Part shown: in pieces, positions 100 to 12,062 of the stretch
Position numbering within the stretch: position 1 is the first letter of the stretch
Layout: the number at the start of each line of letters is the position of its first letter
NCBI GenBank assembly: GCA_946408315.1
Contig: CAMJRV010000018.1
Span: 1 to 15,329 of the forward strand
DNA: 15,329 bases
From: an uncultured Bacillota bacterium
Lineage (GTDB): Bacteria; Bacillota; Clostridia; Peptostreptococcales; Anaerovoracaceae
Direction: 5' to 3'
Made by a program: the position numbers and the translations under genes
Notes under the pieces: model-generated
What the model was told of the DNA's origin: nothing
The model's input: only the letters and a program-made list of their open reading frames with translations
The model's database searches: none

Positions 100-1131
100 T
101 CAATCTGGCGTTATCATAACTTTAAGACATCTTTCTTCCGGATCGGTAGCGGTCCGGATCGCCTCATTCAGCTTGCTCAGGGGGAAGCGGTGCGTAACCA
201 TGGAATCCACGTCGATCACATGGCTTCGGATCAATTGCAGCACGGTGGGATATTCAAAGGGAGTGGAGGAATAGCTTCCGATCAGACTCACCTCATCCAT
301 GCAGATGCGGTTTGCAACGACGGAAACCGTCGTATCCTGGTTGAAAATAGCAAAGGACAGGACGGTGCCGCCTTTTGCGGCGCAGTTTACCGCCGAAGAA
401 AGCAGCGCCGGTACGGCTGCCGCCACAAAGATGACGTCCACCCCCTGACCTTCCGTCATTTCCATGACCGATGCCATCGTATCCTCTTTCGCTCCGTTGA
501 TGATTCTGTCGGCGCCGAGCTTCCGGGCCATTTCAAGCCGGTATTCGGAAACATCGTTGGCGATGACCAGGCCGGCATGCCAGGCTTTCGAAAGCTGCAG
601 CAGGATGGCTCCCACCTGACCTGTACCGACGACCATCACGCTGTCCCCCGGTCTGATACCGGCACGCTCTACCGCGCGGAGTGCGCATGCTGTCGGTTCC
701 ATCATTGCCGCCTGCTCATACGTCACGGAGTCCGGCAATTTCACCATCGAATGCTTCACATGAAGCGGCGACAATCTGATATATTCGGAAAATCCGCCGG
801 GTTCGATGTTCGTTTCCTTCCACTGTTTACAGACCGTGTGATGCCCTCTCTGGCAAGCATGACAGGTAAAGCAGGGAACGTGGTGGGCAACGAAGACACG
901 ATCCCCGATCCGGAAGTTCCCGACTCCCTCGCCGAGCTTTACGATTTCCCCGCCCACTTCATGACCAAGCACCGTTCCCGGCTTCACCGTCTTGTGAACA
1001 GCTTTGTGGATGTCGGTCCCGCAAAGTCCGCAGGCATGCATTTTGATCAAGGCTTCTCCCGCCTCCAGTTCCGGCAGGGCTCTGTCCTCGGTCCTGATAT
1101 CATTTACGTCGTAATAAACCGCCGCTTTCAT
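100..1131 (-). CDS. Zinc-dependent medium-chain dehydrogenase, probable polyol-phosphate dehydrogenase (GatD-like)
   Basis: A 343-residue protein, normal length for the sorbitol/threonine/galactitol-1-phosphate dehydrogenase branch of the MDR superfamily. Visible are the catalytic zinc site (GLCGTD with Cys37, GHE at 56-58, Glu145 in the MMEP stretch), the four structural-zinc cysteines (Cys87, 90, 93, 101) and the NAD-binding turn GTGQVG at 169-174. Family knowledge says such enzymes oxidise a secondary alcohol of a polyol or polyol phosphate with NAD(P)+. The gene lies 36 bases behind gatB and is preceded by AAAGGA, so it is cotranscribed with the PTS genes. By context the substrate is the phosphorylated polyol delivered by the PTS, for example galactitol-1-phosphate to tagatose-6-phosphate. 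The exact polyol is not determined by the sequence. Confidence 0.88.
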   Translation of the reverse strand: MKAAVYYDVNDIRTEDRALPELEAGEALIKMHACGLCGTDIHKAVHKTVKPGTVLGHEVGGEIVKLGEGVGNFRIGDRVFVAHHVPCFTCHACQRGHHTVCKQWKETNIEPGGFSEYIRLSPLHVKHSMVKLPDSVTYEQAAMMEPTACALRAVERAGIRPGDSVMVVGTGQVGAILLQLSKAWHAGLVIANDVSEYRLEMARKLGADRIINGAKEDTMASVMEMTEGQGVDVIFVAAAVPALLSSAVNCAAKGGTVLSFAIFNQDTTVSVVANRICMDEVSLIGSYSSTPFEYPTVLQLIRSHVIDVDSMVTHRFPLSKLNEAIRTATDPEERCLKVMITPD

Positions 1132-1167
1132 AAACAGTTCCTTTCATTTCAGTTCACTATTTTTATT

Positions 1168-1449
1168 TTACTTTAATTTCTCCATGATGAGTTCTACATC
1201 TTTGTCGATTCCGACTCCTGTCAGAAATGAAAGGGTGCGGATGACGGGCGTGTCTCCCGATCCCGTAATCGGCGTTGTGGCGACGATCAGATCGTAGGAT
1301 GCCGCTTTGCCCGGCACTTCGGCCGCCTTGCACTGATCCACCACGACATCAAGTCCCTTTGATGTGAGAATCTCCTTTATCTTGTTTACTACAACCGTAG
1401 ATGTTGCAATACCTGTTCCACAGGCAACCAATACTTTTTTCTTAGCCAT
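1168..1449 (-). CDS. gatB: PTS galactitol-class EIIB component
   Basis: A small cytoplasmic phosphotransfer protein of 93 residues. The N-terminus KKKVLVACGTGIATSTVV contains the phospho-cysteine loop (Cys10 from the chosen start) typical of galactitol-type EIIB, followed by a conserved alternation of beta strands and helices. It accepts phosphate from EIIA and passes it to the sugar during transport through GatC. The start chosen is the ATG at 1447-1449, with AGGAG eight bases upstream; a GTG three codons earlier would abut the ribosome binding site. It lies downstream of gatC across a 101-base spacer holding two hairpins, so its translation or mRNA stability may be tuned separately. The sugar could be galactitol or a related polyol. 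Confidence 0.9.
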   Translation of the reverse strand: MAKKKVLVACGTGIATSTVVVNKIKEILTSKGLDVVVDQCKAAEVPGKAASYDLIVATTPITGSGDTPVIRTLSFLTGVGIDKDVELIMEKLK

Positions 1450-1474
1450 TTCAGGCACTCCTCTCTCTTATTAT

Positions 1475-1536
1475 GCGCCGGCTTGCAGCTATGCTGCAAA
1501 CCGGCCACACTAACGTTCCGCCCGGCGCTTCCGCCG
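1475..1536 (-). promoter_or_regulatory. Two stem-loops in the gatC-gatB intercistronic spacer
   Basis: On the transcribed (minus) strand the spacer folds into two hairpins. The larger pairs 1477-1489 with 1493-1505 (13 bp including one G-U) around a 3-base loop. The smaller pairs 1523-1527 with 1532-1536 around GAAG. Neither is followed by a U-tract, so they are not simple terminators. Likely roles are 3'-end protection of the gatAC message or control of gatB expression; this is inference. Confidence 0.6.
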
Positions 1537-1550
1537 TTTGGCATGATTTA

Positions 1551-2933
1551 TTATCTTTCTGCTTCCGCTTCTGCAATTTCCTTTGCATACTGCTTTTTGA
1601 TGTCATTTCTGACGAAGAACCAGATCAGTCCGTAAATGACGGCGGCAAAGGCGCCTACACCGATCATGACAGGATTTTCAAAGTTCATCAGCTGAATGAT
1701 GATCCATGGGATGATGTGAGAACCGGAATCGATACCGGAAATCATGGTGGCTCCTTCCGGGAAGTCAAAGCCTACCGCATGCCCCATGATGGTCGACAGC
1801 TCCGCCAGATTTGTTGCGAGGAAGAAAACGATACACATCGTCGCGATACCGTTGATCAGACCGCGGACGATATTTCCTCTAGAAGCTGCTACAGCCCATA
1901 CCATGGTAAACGGCAGTACGGCAAGGTCGGCCAGCGGCAGCATTCTGTTATAGGGCAGAATCATAGCAAGTCCGATGGCGATAGGAACCATGAGCAGCGC
2001 AACAGCCATGTTTGCCGGATGTCCGATTACGATGGCCGCGTCCAGACCGATGTATACGTCTTTTCCCGGGAATCTCTTCTGGATAAATTCTCTCGCGCCT
2101 TCGGAGAAAGGAATCAGACCTTCCATCAGGAGGGCAACCATTTTCGGCATAATTGTCAGACCGGCTGAAATCTGGATTCCCAGAGTCAGTGTACCCTTCA
2201 GGTCAAATCCGCCGAGAAGCGCCATCAGGATACCGAGGATCAATCCCATCATCATCGGTTCGCCCAAGAGTCCGAATCTTTTTCTGATGGATTCCGGATC
2301 CGCCTGCAGCTTGTTCAAGCCGGGGATCTTGTCTTCGATTTTGTTCATTAAGTACATAATCGGTGCAAAGTTGACCGTCTCACTGTGAGGCAGGGAAACG
2401 CCGGGCAGTCCGAAGTGGTGTTCCAGAACCGGCGCGGTCCAGTCCGCCAGCTTGAAGGTTACCGCAGCGGTCAGGCAGCCGGCCAGGATTCCGAGGAACA
2501 TGTTGTTCGTCGAATAGTAGGCAACGGAACCGGCAAAGATGAAATGCCAGTAGTTCCAGATGTCAATGTCCATCGTCTTTGTAAAGTTGACCGACAGCAG
2601 GATCAGGTTCATGATAAGAATAATCGGAATTAATAGCGGAGCAACCGGCGTACCGAAAGAGATCGCGGCGCCGATTGGCCAGCCAACGTCTACGATGTCG
2701 AGTTTAAAGCCAAGATTCTCAACAAGAGCGGTTGTTGCAGGTCCAATTGATCCAAGCAAGAGATTTACGACCAGGTTGATAGCGACAAAGCCGACTCCGA
2801 TCGTAATACCTGCGCGGAATGACTTTTTAAAACCCTGGCCTAATACAAGTCCGAAGATTGTGATGATTACCGGCATCATTACCGATACTCCGAGACCCAG
2901 TATGAAGTCTACGGAAGTTTGAATGAATGTCAT
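1551..2933 (-). CDS. gatC: PTS galactitol-class EIIC permease
   Basis: A 460-residue polytopic membrane protein, the usual length for GatC. Hydrophobic segments fill almost the whole chain, starting around residues 8-30. Family features are the conserved glycine/proline loops and the GLDAAIVIGHPANMA region in the second half, resembling the GatC consensus. It forms the translocation channel of the Enzyme II complex in the cytoplasmic membrane and presents the sugar to phospho-GatB. The ATG at 2933 is preceded by AGGAGG. It is the second gene of the operon, 113 bases after gatA, and that gap contains a 21-bp tandem repeat. The C-terminus ends in a charged helix (KKQYAKEIAEAEAER). The class is certain; the exact polyol transported is not. 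Confidence 0.93.
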   Translation of the reverse strand: MTFIQTSVDFILGLGVSVMMPVIITIFGLVLGQGFKKSFRAGITIGVGFVAINLVVNLLLGSIGPATTALVENLGFKLDIVDVGWPIGAAISFGTPVAPLLIPIILIMNLILLSVNFTKTMDIDIWNYWHFIFAGSVAYYSTNNMFLGILAGCLTAAVTFKLADWTAPVLEHHFGLPGVSLPHSETVNFAPIMYLMNKIEDKIPGLNKLQADPESIRKRFGLLGEPMMMGLILGILMALLGGFDLKGTLTLGIQISAGLTIMPKMVALLMEGLIPFSEGAREFIQKRFPGKDVYIGLDAAIVIGHPANMAVALLMVPIAIGLAMILPYNRMLPLADLAVLPFTMVWAVAASRGNIVRGLINGIATMCIVFFLATNLAELSTIMGHAVGFDFPEGATMISGIDSGSHIIPWIIIQLMNFENPVMIGVGAFAAVIYGLIWFFVRNDIKKQYAKEIAEAEAER

Positions 2934-3000
2934 ACTTTTTCCTCCTTAATTATTAAAATATTACAAGGTTGCATTGTGGAAAGCCCACAACTTCCTCCCT

Positions 3001-3042
3001 TATCATAAGTGAATGCACTGCTATCATAAGCAAATGCACTAC
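3001..3042. repeat. 21-bp tandem repeat in the gatA-gatC spacer
   Basis: Two adjacent 21-base units, 3001-3021 and 3022-3042, differ at three positions. The shared core is TATCATAAG followed two bases later by AATGCACT. On the coding strand the unit is seven codons long, has no stop, and is in phase with the end of gatA, just beyond its TGA (3047-3049). It could be a duplicated binding site, a relic of coding sequence, or a recent slippage duplication. Confidence 0.85.
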
Positions 3043-3046
3043 CGGA

Positions 3047-3520
3047 TCAGGCTTTTGCAAGCTCTGCCTGAATCAGTGCGATAACAGTGCTTTCATCCTC
3101 TGCCTGCTGGAGACATTTCAGAAATTCTCCGTCGGCAAACAGGCCGACCAGGCTCTGGAGCATTTCCAACTGTTCCGAAGGCTCATTGATCGCAAGCTGA
3201 AACAGCAGCTGCACCTCCACGGTCTGCTCATCGTCTCCCATCAGGTGAAACAAAACCGGTTTTTTCAGGGTTCCGATTGCCACCGCAGGCTTGTTGACAT
3301 GAACGGCGTCCGTATGGGGAATCGCCACCCCGACTCCGCTCGTCGACAATCCGGTCGGATATACTTTCTCACGGTCAATCACGGCCTGGGTGTATGTCTC
3401 CTTGACAAAACCCTTTTTGTATAATAAATTGCCCAGCTGTTCAATACACAAAAACTCGTCTTCCGCATCGATATGAATCAGCACCAGGTCCTCTGAAATA
3501 TAGCTTGATAGTCCTTTCAC
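3047..3520 (-). CDS. gatA: PTS EIIA component (fructose/mannitol-type domain, GatA)
   Basis: A 157-residue cytoplasmic protein of the PTS EIIA-2 family. The active-site histidine is in VAIPHTDAVHV (His69 from the chosen start), within the family signature after GxGVAIPH. It receives phosphate from phospho-HPr and donates it to GatB. I place the start at the GTG at 3518-3520, with GGGGGAG five bases upstream; another GTG two codons earlier would overlap the ribosome binding site. It is the first gene of the operon, about 40 bases downstream of the predicted transcription start of a sigma-54 promoter. The order gatA-gatC-gatB-dehydrogenase differs from the Escherichia coli gat order, but all parts of the Enzyme II complex are present. 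Confidence 0.9.
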   Translation of the reverse strand: MKGLSSYISEDLVLIHIDAEDEFLCIEQLGNLLYKKGFVKETYTQAVIDREKVYPTGLSTSGVGVAIPHTDAVHVNKPAVAIGTLKKPVLFHLMGDDEQTVEVQLLFQLAINEPSEQLEMLQSLVGLFADGEFLKCLQQAEDESTVIALIQAELAKA

Positions 3521-3570
3521 TTGCACTCCCCCTAATATTTTTTATTTGATTGCTGCGTTGCTATATACTG

Positions 3571-3588
3571 AAGCAATAACTGTGCCAA
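3571..3588 (-). promoter_or_regulatory. Sigma-54 (-24/-12) promoter of the gat operon
   Basis: The minus strand reads TTGGCACAGTTATTGCTT. It matches the sigma-54 consensus TGGCAC-N5-TTGC exactly, with the invariant GG and GC dinucleotides 10 bases apart. Transcription would start near 3561, giving a leader of about 40 bases before gatA. Sigma-54 control of PTS operons by LevR-like activators with PTS regulation domains is established in Firmicutes. No such activator gene is in the window. Confidence 0.78.
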
Positions 3589-3592
3589 CAAA

Positions 3593-3605
3593 TGTATATA
3601 ATGTG
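3593..3605. repeat. Third copy of the operator half-site beside the -24 box
   Basis: TGTATATAATGTG is identical to 3665-3677, 72 bases away in direct orientation. It ends five bases from the -24/-12 promoter. It could be a proximal activator or repressor site, or the -10 of an alternative sigma-A promoter (TTGCAA at 3617-3622, 16-base spacer, TATATA at 3595-3600 on the minus strand). Confidence 0.6.
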
Positions 3606-3640
3606 AACCCGGCTGATTGCAACGGTTTATGGCTTCCGTT

Positions 3641-3678
3641 CCACAATTTATACATTTCTTTTCCTGTATATAATGTGG
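3641..3678. promoter_or_regulatory. Palindromic upstream activating site for the gat promoter
   Basis: An inverted repeat with arms 3641-3654 (CCACAATTTATACA) and 3665-3678 (TGTATATAATGTGG), 12 of 14 positions complementary, separated by 10 bases. It lies roughly 80 to 117 bases upstream of the predicted start, the normal place for an enhancer-binding protein. The right arm recurs exactly for 13 bases at 3593-3605, just upstream of the -24 element, as a half-site. The function is inferred from position and symmetry. Confidence 0.65.
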
Positions 3679-3727
3679 GGTTCCGTCTTTGTTTTTTGTA
3701 AAAAAAGTGGCGCTCCGCATTCCTGCC

Positions 3728-3777
3728 AAACAAATAAACCGTGTGGATAGGATATAGATCCCACCCACACGGTTTAT
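3728..3777 (-). terminator. Intrinsic terminator after the HPr gene
   Basis: A perfect 13-bp inverted repeat pairs 3734-3746 with 3765-3777, with an 18-base loop that can itself pair GGAT with ATCC. On the minus strand it is followed by a short T-rich run (TTTGTTT region). It lies about 40 bases after the HPr stop and separates HPr transcription from the gat promoter region. Confidence 0.75.
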
Positions 3778-3815
3778 ACGATCGATTACCGCTCAGTTTT
3801 CCATCGATTTCACGC

Positions 3816-4088
3816 TCAGTTTTCCGTCTCGCCGATGCCGCTTTCTATCATCGCCGTCAGAGTCGCTACCGCAACTACTTCATCCGGTCCTTCGGCGCGG
3901 ACCGTGACCCGGGCGCCTTTCGAAATTCCCCCGGCGAGGACATTGATGATACTCTTTGCATTGATCGTCTTGCCATCATAAAGAAGATACACGCTGGACC
4001 GGAATAACGAGGCAGCCCGGGCAAATTCGGCAGCAGGCCTTGCATGAAGGCCGGATTTGTTGATAACAGTCGCCTCCTGCTGATACAT
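3816..4088 (-). CDS. ptsH: HPr phosphocarrier protein
   Basis: A 90-residue protein of normal HPr length. With the ATG at 4086-4088 (AGGAGG six bases upstream), the numbering matches classical HPr: the catalytic His15 is in SGLHARPAAEF and Ser46 is in NAKSIINVL. Phosphoenolpyruvate-dependent phosphate passes from Enzyme I to His15 and on to EIIA proteins such as the neighbouring GatA. Ser46 is the target of HPr kinase/phosphorylase in Gram-positive bacteria and links HPr-Ser-P to catabolite repression. The gene is alone, not beside ptsI, and is divergent from the phosphofructokinase gene. An upstream extension in the same frame lacks a ribosome binding site. It could be a Crh-like paralogue, but the retained His15 argues for true HPr. 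Confidence 0.93.
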   Translation of the reverse strand: MYQQEATVINKSGLHARPAAEFARAASLFRSSVYLLYDGKTINAKSIINVLAGGISKGARVTVRAEGPDEVVAVATLTAMIESGIGETEN

Positions 4089-4126
4089 ACAACACCTCCT
4101 ACAATATTCTAATTCAGTATACACCA

Positions 4127-4154
4127 TTCATACCCTCAAATAAAGTTCTGTCAA
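4127..4154 (-). promoter_or_regulatory. Candidate sigma-A promoter for HPr
   Basis: On the minus strand TTGACA (4154-4149) is followed after 16 bases by TATGAA (4132-4127). The -35 is perfect but the -10 is weak. A TATACT a few bases closer to the gene is an alternative -10 with a poor -35. Confidence 0.4.
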
Positions 4155-4264
4155 ACATCGCTTTTAAAATCAGCCTCCTATCGGCATTCATATCGACACC
4201 CATATATTGGCACAAACCTAATCAAAATTTTATCTTCAAGTAACAACAATTTTATCAAAAAACC

Positions 4265-4292
4265 TTGCCATATTTCCGACATATGATACAAT
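4265..4292 (+). promoter_or_regulatory. Candidate sigma-A promoter for the phosphofructokinase gene
   Basis: TTGCCA (4265-4270), a 16-base spacer and TACAAT (4287-4292). The start would be near 4299, leaving a leader of about 85 bases before the ATG. Confidence 0.5.
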
Positions 4293-4317
4293 AATATCAT
4301 CATAATAAAGAAATATA

Positions 4318-4353
4318 GTTACTATTACAGCCGACGGGGCTGTGAATCGTAAC
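4318..4353 (+). promoter_or_regulatory. Stem-loop in the phosphofructokinase leader
   Basis: The inner stem pairs ACAGCC (4327-4332) with GGCTGT (4338-4343). After an internal loop, an outer stem pairs GTTAC (4318-4322) with GTAAC (4349-4353). It lies between the predicted promoter and the ribosome binding site and has no U-tract. It may affect mRNA stability or be bound by a regulator; I do not recognise it as a known riboswitch. Confidence 0.45.
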
Positions 4354-4384
4354 AACATACACATGTCTTAGGAGGGAAATCATT

Positions 4385-5635
4385 ATGTCAAACTTAAAGG
4401 GAGCTGTCCTGATCGGTCAGTCCGGAGGCCCGACTTCGGTAATCAACGCCAGCGCGCTCGGCTGTATTGAGACCGCTTTGAAATCGGAAAACGTCACGCG
4501 CGTATACGGCGCCGCTCATGGGATCAGAGGAGTTCTGGACGACTGTCTTTACGACATGAATCAGGAGGATCCCGAAGAGCTTGCGCTCATGAGGTACACA
4601 CCCTCATCCGTATTGGGAACCTGCCGGTATAAGCTGAAGGATTTTACCGTCGACGATACGGACTACAAGCGGATTCTGGAAATCTTCAAGAAATACGATA
4701 TCCGTTATTTCTTCTATAACGGCGGAAACGACTCCATGGATACCTGCAACAAGATCAGCCAGTTCATGGCACAAAACGGCTACGAATGCAGAGTCATGGG
4801 AATTCCCAAGACTATCGACAACGACCTGGCCCTTACGGACCACTGTCCCGGTTACGGAAGCGCCGCCAAATACATCGCCACCTCCTGCATGGAAATCTAC
4901 AGGGACGCAAAGGTATACGGCACAGGCTCCATCACGGTGCTTGAAATCATGGGAAGAAACGCAGGCTGGTTGACCGCGGCGTCCGCCATCGCTTCCTACA
5001 AGGGCATGGGCCCGGATCTGATCTATCTGCCGGAAGTCGCGTTTGATCTGGATCAGTTTATCGCCGACATCGCCAGAGTCTACGAAGAAAAGGGCGACGT
5101 TCTGGTCGCCGTATCGGAAGGAATCGTTGACAAGAACGGGAATTATGTTTCCGAAATCCTTTCCGCCAATGAAAAAGCCAAGGACGCCTTCGGCCACGTT
5201 CAGATGGGCGGCCTAGCGGCAAACCTTGCCAACTATGCAAATTCAAAGATCAAAGCAAAGGTCAGAGGCATTGAATTCGGAATCATCCAGCGCTGTGCCG
5301 CTCACTTTGCTTCCGAAACCGATGTGAATGAAGCCTACATGGCCGGCAAAGAGGCCTTTAAAGCTGCAGAAGCCGGTATGACGGATAAAATGGTCGCGTT
5401 TGAAAGAGGCGCAGGCTCTGAATACTCCTGCAAAACAGTGCTGGTCGATCTTTCCGAGGTCGCGAACTTCGAGAAGAAGGTGCCGAAAGAGTGGATCAAC
5501 GAAGCCGGAAACGGTCTGCTCCAGCCGTTTATCGATTATGCGCTCCCCCTCATCCAGGGAGAGAACAAGGTCCCTGTTGAGGACGGTGTTCCGAGATTCG
5601 CCAATCTGAAAAAGGTATGCACCTGCGCGAAATAA
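4385..5635 (+). CDS. pfp: Pyrophosphate-dependent 6-phosphofructokinase
   Basis: A 416-residue protein of the PfkA superfamily that phosphorylates fructose 6-phosphate, here predicted to use PPi rather than ATP. Motifs are the N-terminal loop GQSGGPTSVINAS (11-23), GGNDS (113-117), PKTIDND (141-147, catalytic Asp145) and MGRNAGW (189-195). Asp116 and Lys142 replace the two glycines that ATP-dependent enzymes use to make room for ATP; this pair is diagnostic of PPi enzymes, which are reversible and also act in gluconeogenesis. The ATG is preceded by AGGAGGG eight bases away. It is a single gene with its own promoter and terminator, divergent from HPr, so a glycolytic enzyme sits next to sugar-uptake genes. 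Some members also act on sedoheptulose 7-phosphate. Confidence 0.92.
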   Translation: MSNLKGAVLIGQSGGPTSVINASALGCIETALKSENVTRVYGAAHGIRGVLDDCLYDMNQEDPEELALMRYTPSSVLGTCRYKLKDFTVDDTDYKRILEIFKKYDIRYFFYNGGNDSMDTCNKISQFMAQNGYECRVMGIPKTIDNDLALTDHCPGYGSAAKYIATSCMEIYRDAKVYGTGSITVLEIMGRNAGWLTAASAIASYKGMGPDLIYLPEVAFDLDQFIADIARVYEEKGDVLVAVSEGIVDKNGNYVSEILSANEKAKDAFGHVQMGGLAANLANYANSKIKAKVRGIEFGIIQRCAAHFASETDVNEAYMAGKEAFKAAEAGMTDKMVAFERGAGSEYSCKTVLVDLSEVANFEKKVPKEWINEAGNGLLQPFIDYALPLIQGENKVPVEDGVPRFANLKKVCTCAK

Positions 5636-7906: not shown

Positions 7907-8890
7907 TCAAATTTTAAATACGATAAACATCTCGTCGATGGCTGCAATTGCCGCCGGGAACGGGTTCATAATCGTCCATATGCTGATCCCGCTCAGATTA
8001 AACTCGTCTACCAGCGAAAGCTTGGCCCTGACGCTCCTCTCATCCTCGTACCACACGACTTGATTGAGGCCCTCCGGGGTTGTGTAGCTGTAATGGGGAG
8101 CCTGCACTGTCTCGTCGTACTCCACCGGCACTCCGGCTCTGATCGCCCGCTCCGCCGCCTCCTCCTGAGAGATCCGCTCAGCGGCGGCGCCATAGGGCAG
8201 AGTCCAAACGTAGCCGTAATTGGAAATCCCCAGCAGGATAGCGCGGGGATTGACCTTTGCCGTTATGACCGACAGCAGTTCCCGCGCCCGGTCGACCGGC
8301 GACACCGGTCCGGGAGCCTCATACACCTGCTCCCAGTGGAACATCCTGAGTTCAAGGAAGTTAGCGGCCCTGCCGAGAGACTCATAATTGATCCCTTCGT
8401 CGTTTATCCCCGGCGTCAGCGAAACCATGACGAGGTTTCCTCTCCGATTCAGCCTTGCGGCTGTCTTCGCGACGGTGACCACAAATTCTTCGCTGTCCTC
8501 CGGCGCAATGTATCCGAAGTTGAAAACGAAGCCCAGATAATTCTTATTCGTCACGGTCATCACGACGTTATTGATCAGCCGGTCCCGGACCCTGGGATCT
8601 GTGAAAAGCACCCGCACCAGCTCATAGCTGTATTGACCGTTTTCATCAAAAGGTGTCAGTACCATGAGGGGCCCGACCCCGCTGTCATAACTGGCCTGAA
8701 TCAGAGATGCGTCGTCGATCGGTACCAGCTCTCCCTGCATCGTGTATCCGTAGCTGTAGTAGGATACGTATGTTAAATCGTCAGCCCACCTCGCAAGCTG
8801 CTCTCGGGTGATGTCCGGCGTGGCATAGCCGTTGACGAAGATTTCCCTTTTCTCCTGCGCAATTCTTACATTTTTCGATTCCGATGACAT
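7907..8890 (-). CDS. GH18 (SleL/YaaH-like) domain protein, probably non-catalytic
   Basis: A 327-residue protein with the fold signature of the spore-cortex/SleL branch of glycoside hydrolase family 18. The N-terminus has NGYATPDITREQL and LTYVSYYSYGYT, and the C-terminal part has NQVVWYEDERSV and the LSGISIWTI strand. It lacks LysM repeats, signal peptide and membrane anchor. The catalytic strand, normally GxNIDFE, reads GFVFNFGYIAPED (120-132): the acidic residues are replaced by Asn124 and Gly126. The expected MxYD motif is also missing (MFHWEQVY, 183-190). It therefore probably binds a glycan without cutting it. The ATG has AGGAGG six bases upstream. It lies 63 bases downstream of citrate synthase with no clear terminator between, so it may share that riboswitch-controlled transcript. 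Its true ligand is unknown. Confidence 0.8.
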   Translation of the reverse strand: MSSESKNVRIAQEKREIFVNGYATPDITREQLARWADDLTYVSYYSYGYTMQGELVPIDDASLIQASYDSGVGPLMVLTPFDENGQYSYELVRVLFTDPRVRDRLINNVVMTVTNKNYLGFVFNFGYIAPEDSEEFVVTVAKTAARLNRRGNLVMVSLTPGINDEGINYESLGRAANFLELRMFHWEQVYEAPGPVSPVDRARELLSVITAKVNPRAILLGISNYGYVWTLPYGAAAERISQEEAAERAIRAGVPVEYDETVQAPHYSYTTPEGLNQVVWYEDERSVRAKLSLVDEFNLSGISIWTIMNPFPAAIAAIDEMFIVFKI

Positions 8891-8953: not shown

Positions 8954-10357
8954 CTACCGGCTTTTCAGATCAATGTATTCCCTTATTTCCGATACGCTTT
9001 TGTACGCCGGCCTGATAATTTTACTGGCATTGATCAGCTCTTCGATTCTGTGGGCGCTCCAGCCTGAGATGCGCGCAATGGCAAAAATCGGGGTATACAG
9101 CTCCAGCGGCAGGTCGAGCATACTGTAGACAAACCCGCTGTAGAAGTCGATATTCGCGCTGACGCCCTTGTAGATCTTCCTCTCGTTCTCAATGATCTTC
9201 TTGGAAAGCCGCTCAACCATCGCATACAGTCTGAACTCGTCCGTCCTTCCCTTTTCTTCGGAAAGATCCTTTACAAACCGCTTAAAAATATCGGCTCTGG
9301 GGTCGGACAGCGAATATACCGCATGGCCCATCCCGTAGATCAGTCCCTCTCTGTCGAAGGCGTTCTTATACAGCACGTTTTTCAAGTAGACGGAAACCTG
9401 GTCCTCATCCGTCCAGTCGGAGACGTTTCGCTTCAGATCGTCGAACATCTGAACGACTTTGATGTTTGCGCCTCCGTGCTTAGGCCCTTTCAGGGATCCC
9501 AACGCCGCTGCGACGGCGGAATACGTGTCCGTGCCGGAGGAGGATACAACACGCGTCGTAAAGGTCGAGTTGTTTCCGCCGCCATGCTCTGCATGGAGCA
9601 CCAGCGCCAGGTCAAGAATTTTAGCTTCCAATTCACTATATCTGCTGTCCTGCCGGAGCATGTGAAGAATATTTTCCGCCGTGGACAGTTCGGGCTTCGG
9701 GGTATGGATTACCAGGCTCTGTCCGTTAAAGTAGTGCTGGTACGTATGATAGCCGTAAATGGTGAGCAGAGGAAATACGGCGATCAGCTGGAGGCACTGG
9801 CGCAAAACGTTCGCTACGCTGATATCGTTTGCCTTTTTATCGTAGGAATGCAGCGTGAGCACGCTCCTTGCCAGCGTGTTCATCATATCGAGACTCGGAG
9901 CTTTCATGATGATGTCCCTTGCAAAGCTCGAAGGCAGGGTTCTATACCGGGCCAAAAGCTCCGAAAACTCCAACAGCTCCTCTTCATTGGGAAGTCTTCC
10001 GAAGATCAGCAGGTAGGTCGTCTCTTCAAACCCAAACCGCTTTTCATCGATAAACCCATCTACGATCCGCTCGACGTTATATCCCCGATAATAGAGCCTG
10101 CCCTCACAGGGGACCTTTTCTCCATCCACCGTGTCAAAAGCCTGAATGTCCGAGATTTCCGTCAGTCCTGTCAGCACTCCGTTCCCGTTGAGGTCCCGCA
10201 GTCCTCTGTTGACCTCGTATTTTCTATACAGCTCGGGGTCGATGGAGCTGTTTTGATAGCACAGGCTGGTCAGCTTCCGGATTTCCGGCGTTACCTCTCT
10301 GAGCTCTCCCTGATATCCCTGTTGGTTCATCATGATATCGTCTTTCTTTGTATCCAT
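8954..10357 (-). CDS. gltA: Citrate synthase
   Basis: A 467-residue Si-type citrate synthase. It condenses oxaloacetate and acetyl-CoA to citrate in the cytoplasm, the entry to the oxidative branch leading to 2-oxoglutarate and glutamate. Active-site signatures are intact: HAEHGGGNNST (His258), GPKHGGAN (His294), YGMGHAVYS and SDPRA (Asp352), numbered from the chosen start. A 2-methylcitrate synthase activity cannot be excluded. The start is the ATG at 10355-10357 with AAGGGG nine bases upstream; an in-frame ATG 11 codons earlier abuts its purine-rich stretch and lies in a leader hairpin. The gene is preceded by a c-di-AMP riboswitch and a terminator, and followed by the GH18-like gene. It ends in TAG. 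Confidence 0.93.
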   Translation of the reverse strand: MDTKKDDIMMNQQGYQGELREVTPEIRKLTSLCYQNSSIDPELYRKYEVNRGLRDLNGNGVLTGLTEISDIQAFDTVDGEKVPCEGRLYYRGYNVERIVDGFIDEKRFGFEETTYLLIFGRLPNEEELLEFSELLARYRTLPSSFARDIIMKAPSLDMMNTLARSVLTLHSYDKKANDISVANVLRQCLQLIAVFPLLTIYGYHTYQHYFNGQSLVIHTPKPELSTAENILHMLRQDSRYSELEAKILDLALVLHAEHGGGNNSTFTTRVVSSSGTDTYSAVAAALGSLKGPKHGGANIKVVQMFDDLKRNVSDWTDEDQVSVYLKNVLYKNAFDREGLIYGMGHAVYSLSDPRADIFKRFVKDLSEEKGRTDEFRLYAMVERLSKKIIENERKIYKGVSANIDFYSGFVYSMLDLPLELYTPIFAIARISGWSAHRIEELINASKIIRPAYKSVSEIREYIDLKSR

Positions 10358-10383
10358 ATGTCTGTTCCCCTTTCTTCCTTCTG

Positions 10384-10407
10384 CCGGCATCTCCCAGAGA
10401 TACCCGG
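10384..10407 (-). promoter_or_regulatory. Leader hairpin just upstream of the citrate synthase ribosome binding site
   Basis: On the minus strand CCGGGTATCTC (10407-10397) pairs with GAGATGCCGG (10393-10384), about 10 bp with one bulged G and one G-U, closing a TGG loop. It lies after the riboswitch terminator and a few bases before the purine-rich ribosome binding site. It has no U-tract. It may insulate or modulate translation. Confidence 0.5.
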
Positions 10408-10425
10408 TACCTCAAATAGTCCTGT

Positions 10426-10456
10426 AAAATAGAAAAACTGCGGTAATTACCCGCAG
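10426..10456 (-). terminator. Intrinsic terminator of the riboswitch expression platform
   Basis: On the minus strand CTGCGG (10456-10451) pairs with CCGCAG (10443-10438) over a 7-base loop, followed by TTTTTCTATTTT. It lies after the c-di-AMP aptamer and before citrate synthase, so it can act as the controlled terminator. An earlier run of seven Ts (about 10485-10478) follows a GC-rich segment and could be part of the same switch. Confidence 0.8.
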
Positions 10457-10541
10457 CATCAGTCAAAAAATGGCATGCAAAAAAACATAACCGGAGTGCG
10501 CCCAAGTGCCGTTTACGGCGCGTCAGGCGCGCATCACCTCA

Positions 10542-10663
10542 CTCTTTTCTAATGCTTACGAGATTAGCTGACGGATTCGGACAGAAAAGATGCCCTACGC
10601 GAAACGATCGCGATTCACCCCAAAAATTGGTTCTCCCGCTCCATTGCTGGATTCAGCTTCCTA
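10542..10663 (-). promoter_or_regulatory. c-di-AMP riboswitch (ydaO-yuaA class)
   Basis: The minus strand contains the conserved blocks of this aptamer in order: GCTGAATCC, GGGAGAACCA, TTTTTGGGGTGAATC, a variable hairpin CGCGA-TCGTT-TCGCG (10612-10598), TAGGG, TCTGTCCGAATCCG and GTCAGCTAATCTCGTAAGC. The known tertiary pairing is present as a perfect 7-bp match between CTTTTCT (10589-10583) and AGAAAAG (10550-10544); its sequence differs from the Thermoanaerobacter example I remember, but its position is the same. Binding of c-di-AMP to this class usually turns genes off through a terminator. Here the downstream gene is citrate synthase, then the GH18-like gene. The P1 ends are only approximate. 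Confidence 0.93.
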
Positions 10664-10697
10664 TTCAATTTTCTGCTTTCTAATTTCTATTTATAAT

Positions 10698-10726
10698 AAA
10701 ATACCATAGTAAAAAAACAAAATCAA
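10698..10726 (-). promoter_or_regulatory. Candidate sigma-A promoter of the riboswitch-citrate synthase unit
   Basis: On the minus strand TTGATT (10726-10721), a 17-base spacer and TATTTT (10703-10698). The start would fall near 10690, about 25-30 bases before the aptamer. A TATAAA slightly further downstream is an alternative -10 with a T-run as -35. Confidence 0.5.
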
Positions 10727-10763
10727 GAGGAGAATAAAACATCTTCCTTCTTATTCCATTTCC

Positions 10764-12062
10764 TCAGTCCCACGGTTTCCCCAGCACATGTACGACAAAA
10801 GCCTTTGCGATGTCGGGATCGAATTGATATCCGGCATTTTTCTTGATTTCATAAAGCACCACCGCATCGTCCAGCGCTTTTCGGTAAGGCCGTTCGCTCG
10901 TCATGGCGTCATAGCTGTCCGCCAGCGCGATGATCCTCGCCTCGATGGGAATCTCACAGCCCGCCAGACCTCTCGGGTAACCCTTTCCATCCCACCGTTC
11001 ATGATGGGAGAGTACACAGTCCGCAAAGTCCGGCATTTCGTTGGTCGCGCTCAAAATCCGAAAGCCGACGTCGGGATGGCGTTTGATTTCCTCCTGCTCG
11101 CGCTCTGTCAGCTTGCCTTCCTTGTTCAGGATGCTTTCATCGATGGCGATCTTGCCGATATCGTGGAGATGGCCGAGCAGTTTCAGCTTGCTCGTCTCGG
11201 TTTCTGAAAAACCGATGGCGGCGCCAATTTTTTGCGCCACCTCTCCCACACGTTCCGAGTGCTTCTCTTCCCGCGGATTTTTTTCGTAGAGGGTCTTGAT
11301 GATGGTGCTGATCAAGTTCCCCCTGAGGCCCTCATTCTGGATGATCTTATGCTTATACATAGCGTTTTCGGCATTCTTCAGGATTTCAGCAAAGCTCACG
11401 TCCATAGAGGACTTGGTAGCCCAGCCCAGAGACATGCTGACATGGATCATATCAAGGCTTTCTCTGCCGCAGTCCTCTTTAATCCGGTCTACCACCTTCT
11501 CCGCCTCTCCATATGCCGTGTTTGGCAGCAATACGACAAACTCGTCGCCGCCCCAGCGCGCCACCACATCCCCTTTCCTGCACCTGGCCCGGATCATCTC
11601 TGCCACCTTTTGCAGGAGCTGATCTCCCAGATGGTGACCGAATGCATCGTTGATCATTTTCAATCCGTTGACGTCCGCCATGATGACGGAGATGGGAAGA
11701 TTCTTTTCCGCGTCCAGCCGCTCGACTTCCATTTCATAATATCTTCTGTTGCACAGCCCGGTGAGCAGGTCGTAATAACTTAAATAGAGATTGTACTTTT
11801 CCGACTGTTCTACTTTTTTCAGCAGACGGCCCAGGATGACATACAGAATAATGGATGTAACCAGAACGTACACTATGCCTTTATAGGTATTGATCATGAA
11901 AAAGAACGTATCGTCAGGAGAAAGGAGATAGGCGAGCCGGTCGGAGAAAAAAATCCAAAGGATACCGATGAGCGTATAGATCAGGGTGATGGAAATGCAC
12001 TCCTGCTGATACTTATATCGAAACGGTATGAATGCAAATATTTTTTTCAGAAATTGCAGCAT
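10764..12062 (-). CDS. Membrane GGDEF plus HD-GYP protein (c-di-GMP synthesis and breakdown)
   Basis: A 432-residue protein from the ATG at 12060-12062, with AAGGAG six bases upstream. Two hydrophobic segments (about 25-40 and 55-80) anchor it in the membrane with a short external loop. The GGDEF domain (about 95-245) has an intact GGDEF motif at 171-175, preceded by five residues and RKGD, an RxxD inhibitory site for c-di-GMP feedback. The HD-GYP domain (about 250-430) has HLHDIGK (HD at 300-301) and HHERWDGKGYP (353-363), the full signature of c-di-GMP phosphodiesterases. Both activities look possible, so the protein may switch between making and degrading c-di-GMP. No effector gene is adjacent. 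The upstream gene is the interrupted transglycosylase, whose terminator separates the two. Confidence 0.92.
   Translation of the reverse strand: MLQFLKKIFAFIPFRYKYQQECISITLIYTLIGILWIFFSDRLAYLLSPDDTFFFMINTYKGIVYVLVTSIILYVILGRLLKKVEQSEKYNLYLSYYDLLTGLCNRRYYEMEVERLDAEKNLPISVIMADVNGLKMINDAFGHHLGDQLLQKVAEMIRARCRKGDVVARWGGDEFVVLLPNTAYGEAEKVVDRIKEDCGRESLDMIHVSMSLGWATKSSMDVSFAEILKNAENAMYKHKIIQNEGLRGNLISTIIKTLYEKNPREEKHSERVGEVAQKIGAAIGFSETETSKLKLLGHLHDIGKIAIDESILNKEGKLTEREQEEIKRHPDVGFRILSATNEMPDFADCVLSHHERWDGKGYPRGLAGCEIPIEARIIALADSYDAMTSERPYRKALDDAVVLYEIKKNAGYQFDPDIAKAFVVHVLGKPWD

Follow-up and report, generated by a model that had tools for sequence, protein, structure and literature searches.

Why would a riboswitch that senses cyclic di-AMP (c-di-AMP) precede a citrate synthase gene? 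The question is raised by a stretch of 15,329 nucleotides, hereafter the window, which corresponds to positions 1-15,329 of contig CAMJRV010000018.1 (assembly GCA_946408315.1) from an uncultured Bacillota bacterium (Clostridia; Peptostreptococcales; Anaerovoracaceae). According to the available sections of two reviews (PMC7266159, PMC5575661), this riboswitch class acts on potassium and amino acid transporters and on cell-wall, osmotic and sporulation genes, and the word citrate is absent from those sections. An initial annotation based on the letters of the window had placed such a riboswitch before gltA. We consider it very probable that the leader is a c-di-AMP riboswitch that controls the transcription of citrate synthase as an OFF switch and thereby stops the synthesis of glutamate precursors, and hence of osmolytes, at its first step.

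The aptamer and the gene behind it

The covariance search that the initial annotation had proposed as a check on its aptamer returned RF00379 on the minus strand at 10668-10538 with 103 bits (cmscan; gathering score 38; E 5.2e-24; model positions 1-134, complete). This was the sole Rfam match at gathering score in the window and the only RF00379 match in its assembly (genome G000), a draft of 589 contigs that is 67% complete with 3% contamination. A custom model, R1, gave the same aptamer 121 bits, the window itself being part of the R1 training set. A chance match was rejected on the basis of the 103 bits and the recurrence in relatives described below, and its covariance match marks the aptamer as a typical member of the known class. 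The elements of the aptamer and the gene that follows are listed below.

10538..10668, minus strand: c-di-AMP riboswitch aptamer (RF00379, ydaO/yuaA class), from the Rfam covariance model
10655..10658, minus strand: 5' strand of helix P1 (AGCU), from the Rfam structure line
10553..10556, minus strand: 3' strand of helix P1 (AGCA), from the Rfam structure line
10583..10589, minus strand: loop strand of the tertiary pairing (CUUUUCU), from the sequence and a swapped-tail control
10544..10550, minus strand: tail strand of the tertiary pairing (AGAAAAG), from the sequence and a swapped-tail control
8954..10357, minus strand (longer frame from 10390): citrate synthase coding sequence, from PRK14032, PF00285 and PDB matches

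In P1, A10556, G10555 and C10554 form canonical pairs with 10655-10657. The tertiary pairing is present exactly as the initial annotation described it, with seven base pairs joining CTTTTCT (10589-10583) in an internal loop to AGAAAAG (10550-10544) in the 3' tail. When loops and tails were exchanged among 166 of the 176 riboswitches compared in the present study and scored as a 9-pair helix, own pairs reached a mean of 16.7 versus 12.8 for swapped tails; at least five contiguous pairs were found in 160 of the 166, and the own pair was better than 90% of the swaps in only 78.

The frame at 8954-10390 matched NCBIfam PRK14032 with 724 bits (cut-off 426) and Pfam PF00285 with 391 bits (cut-off 27), while TIGR01800 (2-methylcitrate/citrate synthase II) gave 273 bits and thus stayed under its cut-off of 421. 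Among the 74 PDB sequences that matched, the best was citrate synthase 1iom, and the best-matching chains are citrate synthases. Judged by profile, the gene encodes a Si-type citrate synthase, although homology of this kind cannot distinguish the substrates of citrate synthase and 2-methylcitrate synthase. The ATG at 10357, which lies behind AGGGGAA (10371-10365), is the likelier start, because the ATG at 10390 falls within a second hairpin at 10407-10384. This hairpin, in which CCGGGTATCTC (10407-10397) is paired with GAGATGCCGG (10393-10384) on the minus strand, sits between the terminator and the ribosome-binding site of citrate synthase and covers ATG 10390.

The expression platform and the proposed switch

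As the initial annotation had stated, the aptamer is followed by an intrinsic terminator and then by citrate synthase, with no supported gene in between. The terminator (10457-10437) has seven pairs, five of which are G-C, followed by TTTTCTATTT; since a scan of 10380-10800 found one terminator where 0.6 are expected by chance, the pattern is weak when taken alone. It lies downstream of the aptamer, on the same strand and before the citrate synthase gene, which is the arrangement of an RF00379 expression platform. A pairing that could compete with it was found in the same leader.

10549..10556, minus strand: 5' arm of the proposed antiterminator, AGCAUUAG, with 8 contiguous pairs to 10462-10455
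10455..10462, minus strand: 3' arm of the proposed antiterminator, CUGAUGCU, pairing with 10556-10549
10437..10457, minus strand: intrinsic terminator stem-loop with a T-rich tail, from the terminator scan and fold

The 5' arm of the antiterminator shares three bases with P1 (10556-10554) and two with the tail of the tertiary pairing, and its 3' arm shares three with the 5' arm of the terminator. Overlapping alternative helices were also found in most of the other citrate synthase leaders evaluated in a comparison with looser filters, which took in all 16 leaders of this kind.

On this basis, the leader is most likely an OFF switch that works through transcription attenuation. At low c-di-AMP, the 3' tail of the aptamer (10556-10549) would pair with 10462-10455, and RNA polymerase would read through into citrate synthase because this antiterminator takes bases of the terminator 5' arm. 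At high c-di-AMP, a state of ample potassium, the ligand would stabilize P1 and the tertiary pairing and hold the tail, such that the terminator would form and citrate synthase would fall. The likely purpose would be to halt the production of citrate, 2-oxoglutarate and glutamate (beta-glutamate in relatives), the anionic osmolytes that accompany potassium.

Recurrence of the pair

The initial annotation had also proposed a survey of other Clostridia for the same gene order, and the order recurs. In the 349 genomes of the window's family, a set not marked as a sample, RF00379 was found at 27 places in 22 genomes, and citrate synthase was the first gene at 14 of these places in 13 genomes (the window, L153, L158, L161, L180, L183, L191, L196, L197, L198, L200, L202, L243 and L244). 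Citrate synthase is the commonest target of the riboswitch within this family. Genome G066, which carries the pair at L202, is matched exactly across 4350 bases by the common citrate synthase locus of Sinanaerobacter chloroacetimidivorans BAD-6. A sample of the order (393 genomes, 47 with matches) held no case with a Si-type enzyme outside the family, and a sample of the class (391 genomes, 113 with matches) added two, L264 and L298 in one genus of another family, among the 89 loci read out of a larger number of matches. These bring the riboswitched Si-type citrate synthases to 16.

Across all 176 leaders, the first gene was a GNAT acetyltransferase in 28, peptidoglycan-binding hydrolase-like in 28, DapB-like in 18, citrate synthase in 16, an aminomutase in 11, chemotaxis-receptor-like in 9, opine-dehydrogenase-like in 8, SleB-like in 7, TrkH-like in 6, LysM-hydrolase-like in 6, Re-citrate-synthase-like in 5, KUP-like in 3, RCK-like in 2 and another gene in 29. 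These labels reflect tblastn similarity to one query each, with several query names assigned by eye, and the profile-library check extended to citrate synthase, the aminomutase, GNAT, DapB, opine dehydrogenase and a LeuA-like protein. Two arrangements were seen among the other targets: tandem c-di-AMP aptamers approximately 300 bases apart before an acetyltransferase-like gene (L129, L130, L131, L133, L138), and a riboswitch followed by an opine-dehydrogenase-like gene and a second conserved gene (L126 1231-3989, L135, L144, L162), which in L126 showed weak B12-binding and methylaspartate-mutase matches.

On a tree of 60 rows, from which 51 of the 80 nearest named citrate synthase loci were left out and in which L222 is flagged as a long branch, riboswitched genes fell into a large family-specific group (10 riboswitched rows and 7 without an aptamer in the fetched sequence), a group of L161, L196 and L198, and the pair from another family, L264 and L298. 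The window gene stands alone, next to the common family copy. The state of the riboswitch changes at least six times along the tree, four of these changes being forced by well-supported branches; gains and losses are indistinguishable by the change count alone.

The window's genome carries at least three copies of citrate synthase. The copy on contig C371 (78% identical) is nearest to the common copy, and its contig is cut within the gene, before the leader. Two contig pieces, C20 and C77, share 81% and 91% identity with the riboswitched copy in genome G365 (L158) and are probably the halves of one gene. No aptamer was found in the C20 leader even with filters off. This leader (L248, 1954-2132) contains a TATAAT-like box (1954-1964) and, at 2042-2070, a terminator of the riboswitch type that resembles that of L153. 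The aptamer model did not match the citrate synthase leaders of G363, G134 and G080, the contig of the last ending close upstream, and the common copies in relatives (L210-L215) have no aptamer. The idea that the window gene is the housekeeping copy placed under control was rejected, since L210-L215 lack the aptamer and the gene in the window is an additional copy. The placement claimed by the initial annotation recurs on other lineages, and the gene involved is one of at least three copies and not the widespread one.

A literature search that did not extend to Block 2010 and Nelson 2013, two original papers describing the class, returned no link between RF00379 and citrate synthase, and the available sections of PMC4342826, PMC5670726, PMC12593503 and PMC11076491 contain no link between a riboswitch and this enzyme. 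Citrate synthase as a target of the class thus seems unreported in the searchable literature, and the pairing is unexpected and recurrent.

Points against the assignment and alternative explanations

A number of observations weigh against control of citrate synthase by this riboswitch, and the first of these concern its distribution. Under stricter filters, 327 of the 349 family genomes had no riboswitch match; the aptamer was present at none of the 80 nearest named citrate synthase loci and at none of six related copies in the window's family; and the exact pair in the window has been seen in a single draft assembly. Although the order recurs in relatives, the precise position recorded in the initial annotation is therefore private as far as has been seen. 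The model used on the 80 loci, four of which (L032, L073, L077, L086) have only about 230-650 contig bases before the match, recovered the aptamer from all 81 known-positive sources, 17 of whose aptamers had served to train it. In favor of the assignment, a diadenylate cyclase domain, the mark of a host that can make c-di-AMP, was detected in the window's genome (PF02457, E 5.2e-44) and in 16 of 18 riboswitch-bearing genomes searched; against it, the search was negative in the other two (G031, G009).

A private arrangement is what would be expected if a real riboswitch had recently been cut off from an old target and citrate synthase had arrived by gene replacement, its control being incidental and unselected. 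The sister species G432, of the same genus, supplies further evidence of this kind. At the same locus (L242), it keeps the GGDEF-HD gene that lies upstream of the aptamer in the window (75-77% identical), the aptamer (89.5% over 124 nucleotides), the terminator region and the convergent histidine kinase (79%), and it has an unrelated gene for a 434-amino-acid protein in place of citrate synthase and the glycosyl hydrolase gene downstream of it. One riboswitch thus has different cargo in the two species. Neither Pfam nor, at E 1e-20, NCBIfam matched the 434-amino-acid protein (L242 1223-2524), and in G035 (L199) a riboswitch precedes a homologue, which suggests that this gene is the older cargo. 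Where the two flanking genes meet in G365, G387 and G433, no aptamer is present. A 25-residue match in G387 was considered as a remnant of the 434-amino-acid gene and rejected, because it corresponds to the terminal part of the convergent histidine kinase read on the opposite strand, and the order of events at the locus is thus not proven.

We nevertheless regard an incidental placement as unlikely. Citrate synthase is the commonest target in the family and occupies this place on several separate lineages, which makes its chance landing behind a riboswitch improbable. The tail and terminator are common to the window and G432; of the two antiterminators, that of the window is if anything the stronger (duplex energy -11.9, with 8 contiguous pairs, vs. 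-7.3), despite an extra G+C-rich segment at approximately 10534-10490 that is absent from G432.

The second set of observations concerns the antiterminator. In its favor, an 11-bp version, aligned in eight different leaders from the large family group that do not include the window, was paired in 93.2% of cells, compared with 42.5-64.1% when the helix was slid; against it, shuffles gave 90.8%, and the covariation score was reached by 14 of 500 shuffles. Own and swapped duplex energies were compared in 70 of the 176 leaders, as selected by filters on tail, terminator or position (among those left out were L180, L200, L198, L264, L298, L128, L136 and L285, and the tail of L161 was masked), and just 18 of the 70 ranked within the top 5% relative to swapped tails. 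The tail of the window ranked at 0.109 and that of G432, with its weaker duplex, at 0.254. In the looser comparison of the 16 citrate synthase leaders, L264 and L298 had no antiterminator duplex. P1 was absent from the free minimum-energy fold of the window leader, computed without pseudoknots.

Statistics of this moderate strength, together with the extra G+C-rich segment in the leader, would also fit an ON switch or another expression platform, such as a different helix exchange, through which c-di-AMP would raise citrate synthase. The antiterminator, however, overlaps both P1 and the terminator, the usual logic of which is OFF, and the ydaO riboswitch of Bacillus subtilis is reported as an off switch in the available text of PMC5575661; we consider an ON switch to be very improbable.

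A scan for sigma-70-like promoters across 10380-10800 was empty, upstream of the aptamer as well as from the terminator to 10380. The least probable alternative, to which we assign hardly any weight, is that the aptamer is a relic without function, with citrate synthase transcribed from a promoter downstream of the terminator, as might be suggested by the other citrate synthase of this genome (C20, C77), which has kept TATAAT-like and terminator sequences with no aptamer; against it stand the 103 bits across the complete model, the identity with the aptamer of G432 and the lack of a promoter-like site in the part scanned behind the terminator, which excludes 10357-10380. Attenuation of citrate synthase by c-di-AMP is preferred over all three alternatives; the overall interpretation of the initial annotation is supported, and the physiological link is one that we infer.

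Neighboring genes

Downstream of citrate synthase lies a second gene that may respond to the same leader.

7907..8890, minus strand: glycosyl hydrolase family 18 (GH18) gene, from PF00704

It starts 63 nucleotides downstream of citrate synthase and is possibly co-transcribed with it. Between the two, an 8-bp inverted repeat on the minus strand (8937-8896) consists of GCCTCCTG (8937-8930) and CAGGAGGC (8903-8896); the latter arm contains the likely GH18 ribosome-binding site, which the repeat, as folded, could hide. Far from the riboswitch, at 100-5635, the window carries a phosphofructokinase gene (PF00365) and dehydrogenase-like, phosphotransferase-system-like and HPr-like frames, these three named by eye.

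Candidate Re-citrate synthases and aminomutases

Outside the window's family, candidate genes for Re-citrate synthase were found at eight riboswitch loci, as the first gene in five (L128, L136, L285, L297, L322) and the second in three (L303, L309, L318). In L128 and L136, the riboswitch is followed by the LeuA-family candidate, aconitase and an isocitrate-dehydrogenase-like gene; aconitase was tested with NCBIfam in L128 (973 bits, cut-off 612) and the dehydrogenase in L136 (best match 440 bits, below the curated cut-off of 510), each being assigned by similarity in the other locus. In the three loci where the candidate is second, it is preceded by a protein whose best match is glutamate 2,3-aminomutase, with 620-631 bits slightly below the cut-off of 650. 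An aminomutase nearer to the likely glutamate than to the lysine 2,3-aminomutase was observed at eight loci (L303, L309, L318, L304, L326, L295, L335, L305).

The candidates examined with Pfam (L303 and L285, two of eight) are HMGL-like proteins of the PF00682 type, and those examined with NCBIfam (L128 and L322, two of eight) fell far under all cut-offs for isopropylmalate and homocitrate synthases. A protein 76% identical to the L303 candidate bears the name citrate (Re)-synthase in one database entry. The L303 candidate itself is identical to a Thermoclostridium caenicola protein across 98% of its length. The remaining named matches are isopropylmalate or isopropylmalate/homocitrate/citramalate synthases, and a Si-type gene is also present in six of the eight genomes; because of both points, we infer rather than assert that these LeuA-like proteins are Re-citrate synthases. 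According to the available text of PMC12016533, enzymes of this type frequently carry erroneous annotations as isopropylmalate or homocitrate synthase.

Beta-glutamate is an osmolyte, and a route to it under c-di-AMP is possible at the eight aminomutase loci, judging from the similarity of their gene products. A literature search for glutamate 2,3-aminomutase together with osmolyte found nothing. If both assignments are correct, the path from citrate through 2-oxoglutarate and glutamate to beta-glutamate would be under c-di-AMP in some species.

Implications and comparison with known systems

A broader proposal, for and against which we see the chances as about equal, is that c-di-AMP riboswitches in Clostridia govern a glutamate-osmolyte regulon, into which the first step, the synthesis of citrate, has been recruited repeatedly (several Si-type lineages and the unrelated Re-type) with copies being swapped, as a control at the RNA level alongside that of potassium uptake. 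A swap of this kind would mean that the loss of the riboswitch from one copy of citrate synthase is made good by placing another copy under a different riboswitch, as in the window. Control of osmolytes at the RNA level would then parallel the control of pyruvate carboxylase at the protein level in Listeria.

In the available sections of PMC8549634 and PMC7299772, citZ mutations in Listeria suppress the need for c-di-AMP, and the build-up of glutamate and glutamine on the loss of c-di-AMP depends on citZ. The lowering of citrate synthase at high c-di-AMP, as proposed here, would agree with Listeria in direction and would act one step after pyruvate carboxylase. A direct link at the RNA level between c-di-AMP and citrate synthase, present on separate gene lineages and perhaps for two unrelated enzymes, would point to the matching of citrate and glutamate to potassium as a central function of this signal and not a peculiarity of Listeria, and it makes the lethality of c-di-AMP loss, and its cure through citrate synthase in Listeria, testable in other bacteria. 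It would also widen the targets of the class from transport and the cell wall, as given in the available parts of the two reviews above, to central carbon metabolism.

With the ydaO/yuaA riboswitches, the window shares the aptamer class, the terminator platform and the presumed OFF logic; their targets are transporter, cell-wall and osmotic-shock genes, whereas that of the window is an enzyme of central metabolism. Lysine 2,3-aminomutase belongs to the route to the osmolyte N-acetyl-beta-lysine. Its genes behind c-di-AMP riboswitches likewise place an osmolyte-making enzyme under the same class, and citrate synthase stands further upstream in metabolism. Re-citrate synthase of the Clostridium kluyveri/Heliomicrobium type also makes citrate, with candidates behind c-di-AMP riboswitches in relatives, but is an unrelated protein (PF00682) to the product of the window gene (PF00285). 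A further comparison is with pyruvate carboxylase. As the initial annotation had noted for Listeria, c-di-AMP inhibits this enzyme; the inhibition is by direct binding in both Listeria and Lactococcus, and the Bacillus enzyme is activated by c-di-AMP-free DarB (available text of PMC8822347). In all three, c-di-AMP likewise lowers the flux into citrate and glutamate (PMC8822347 and PMC7299772, available sections), acting through the enzyme protein one step earlier, whereas the proposed point of control in the window is the mRNA of citrate synthase.

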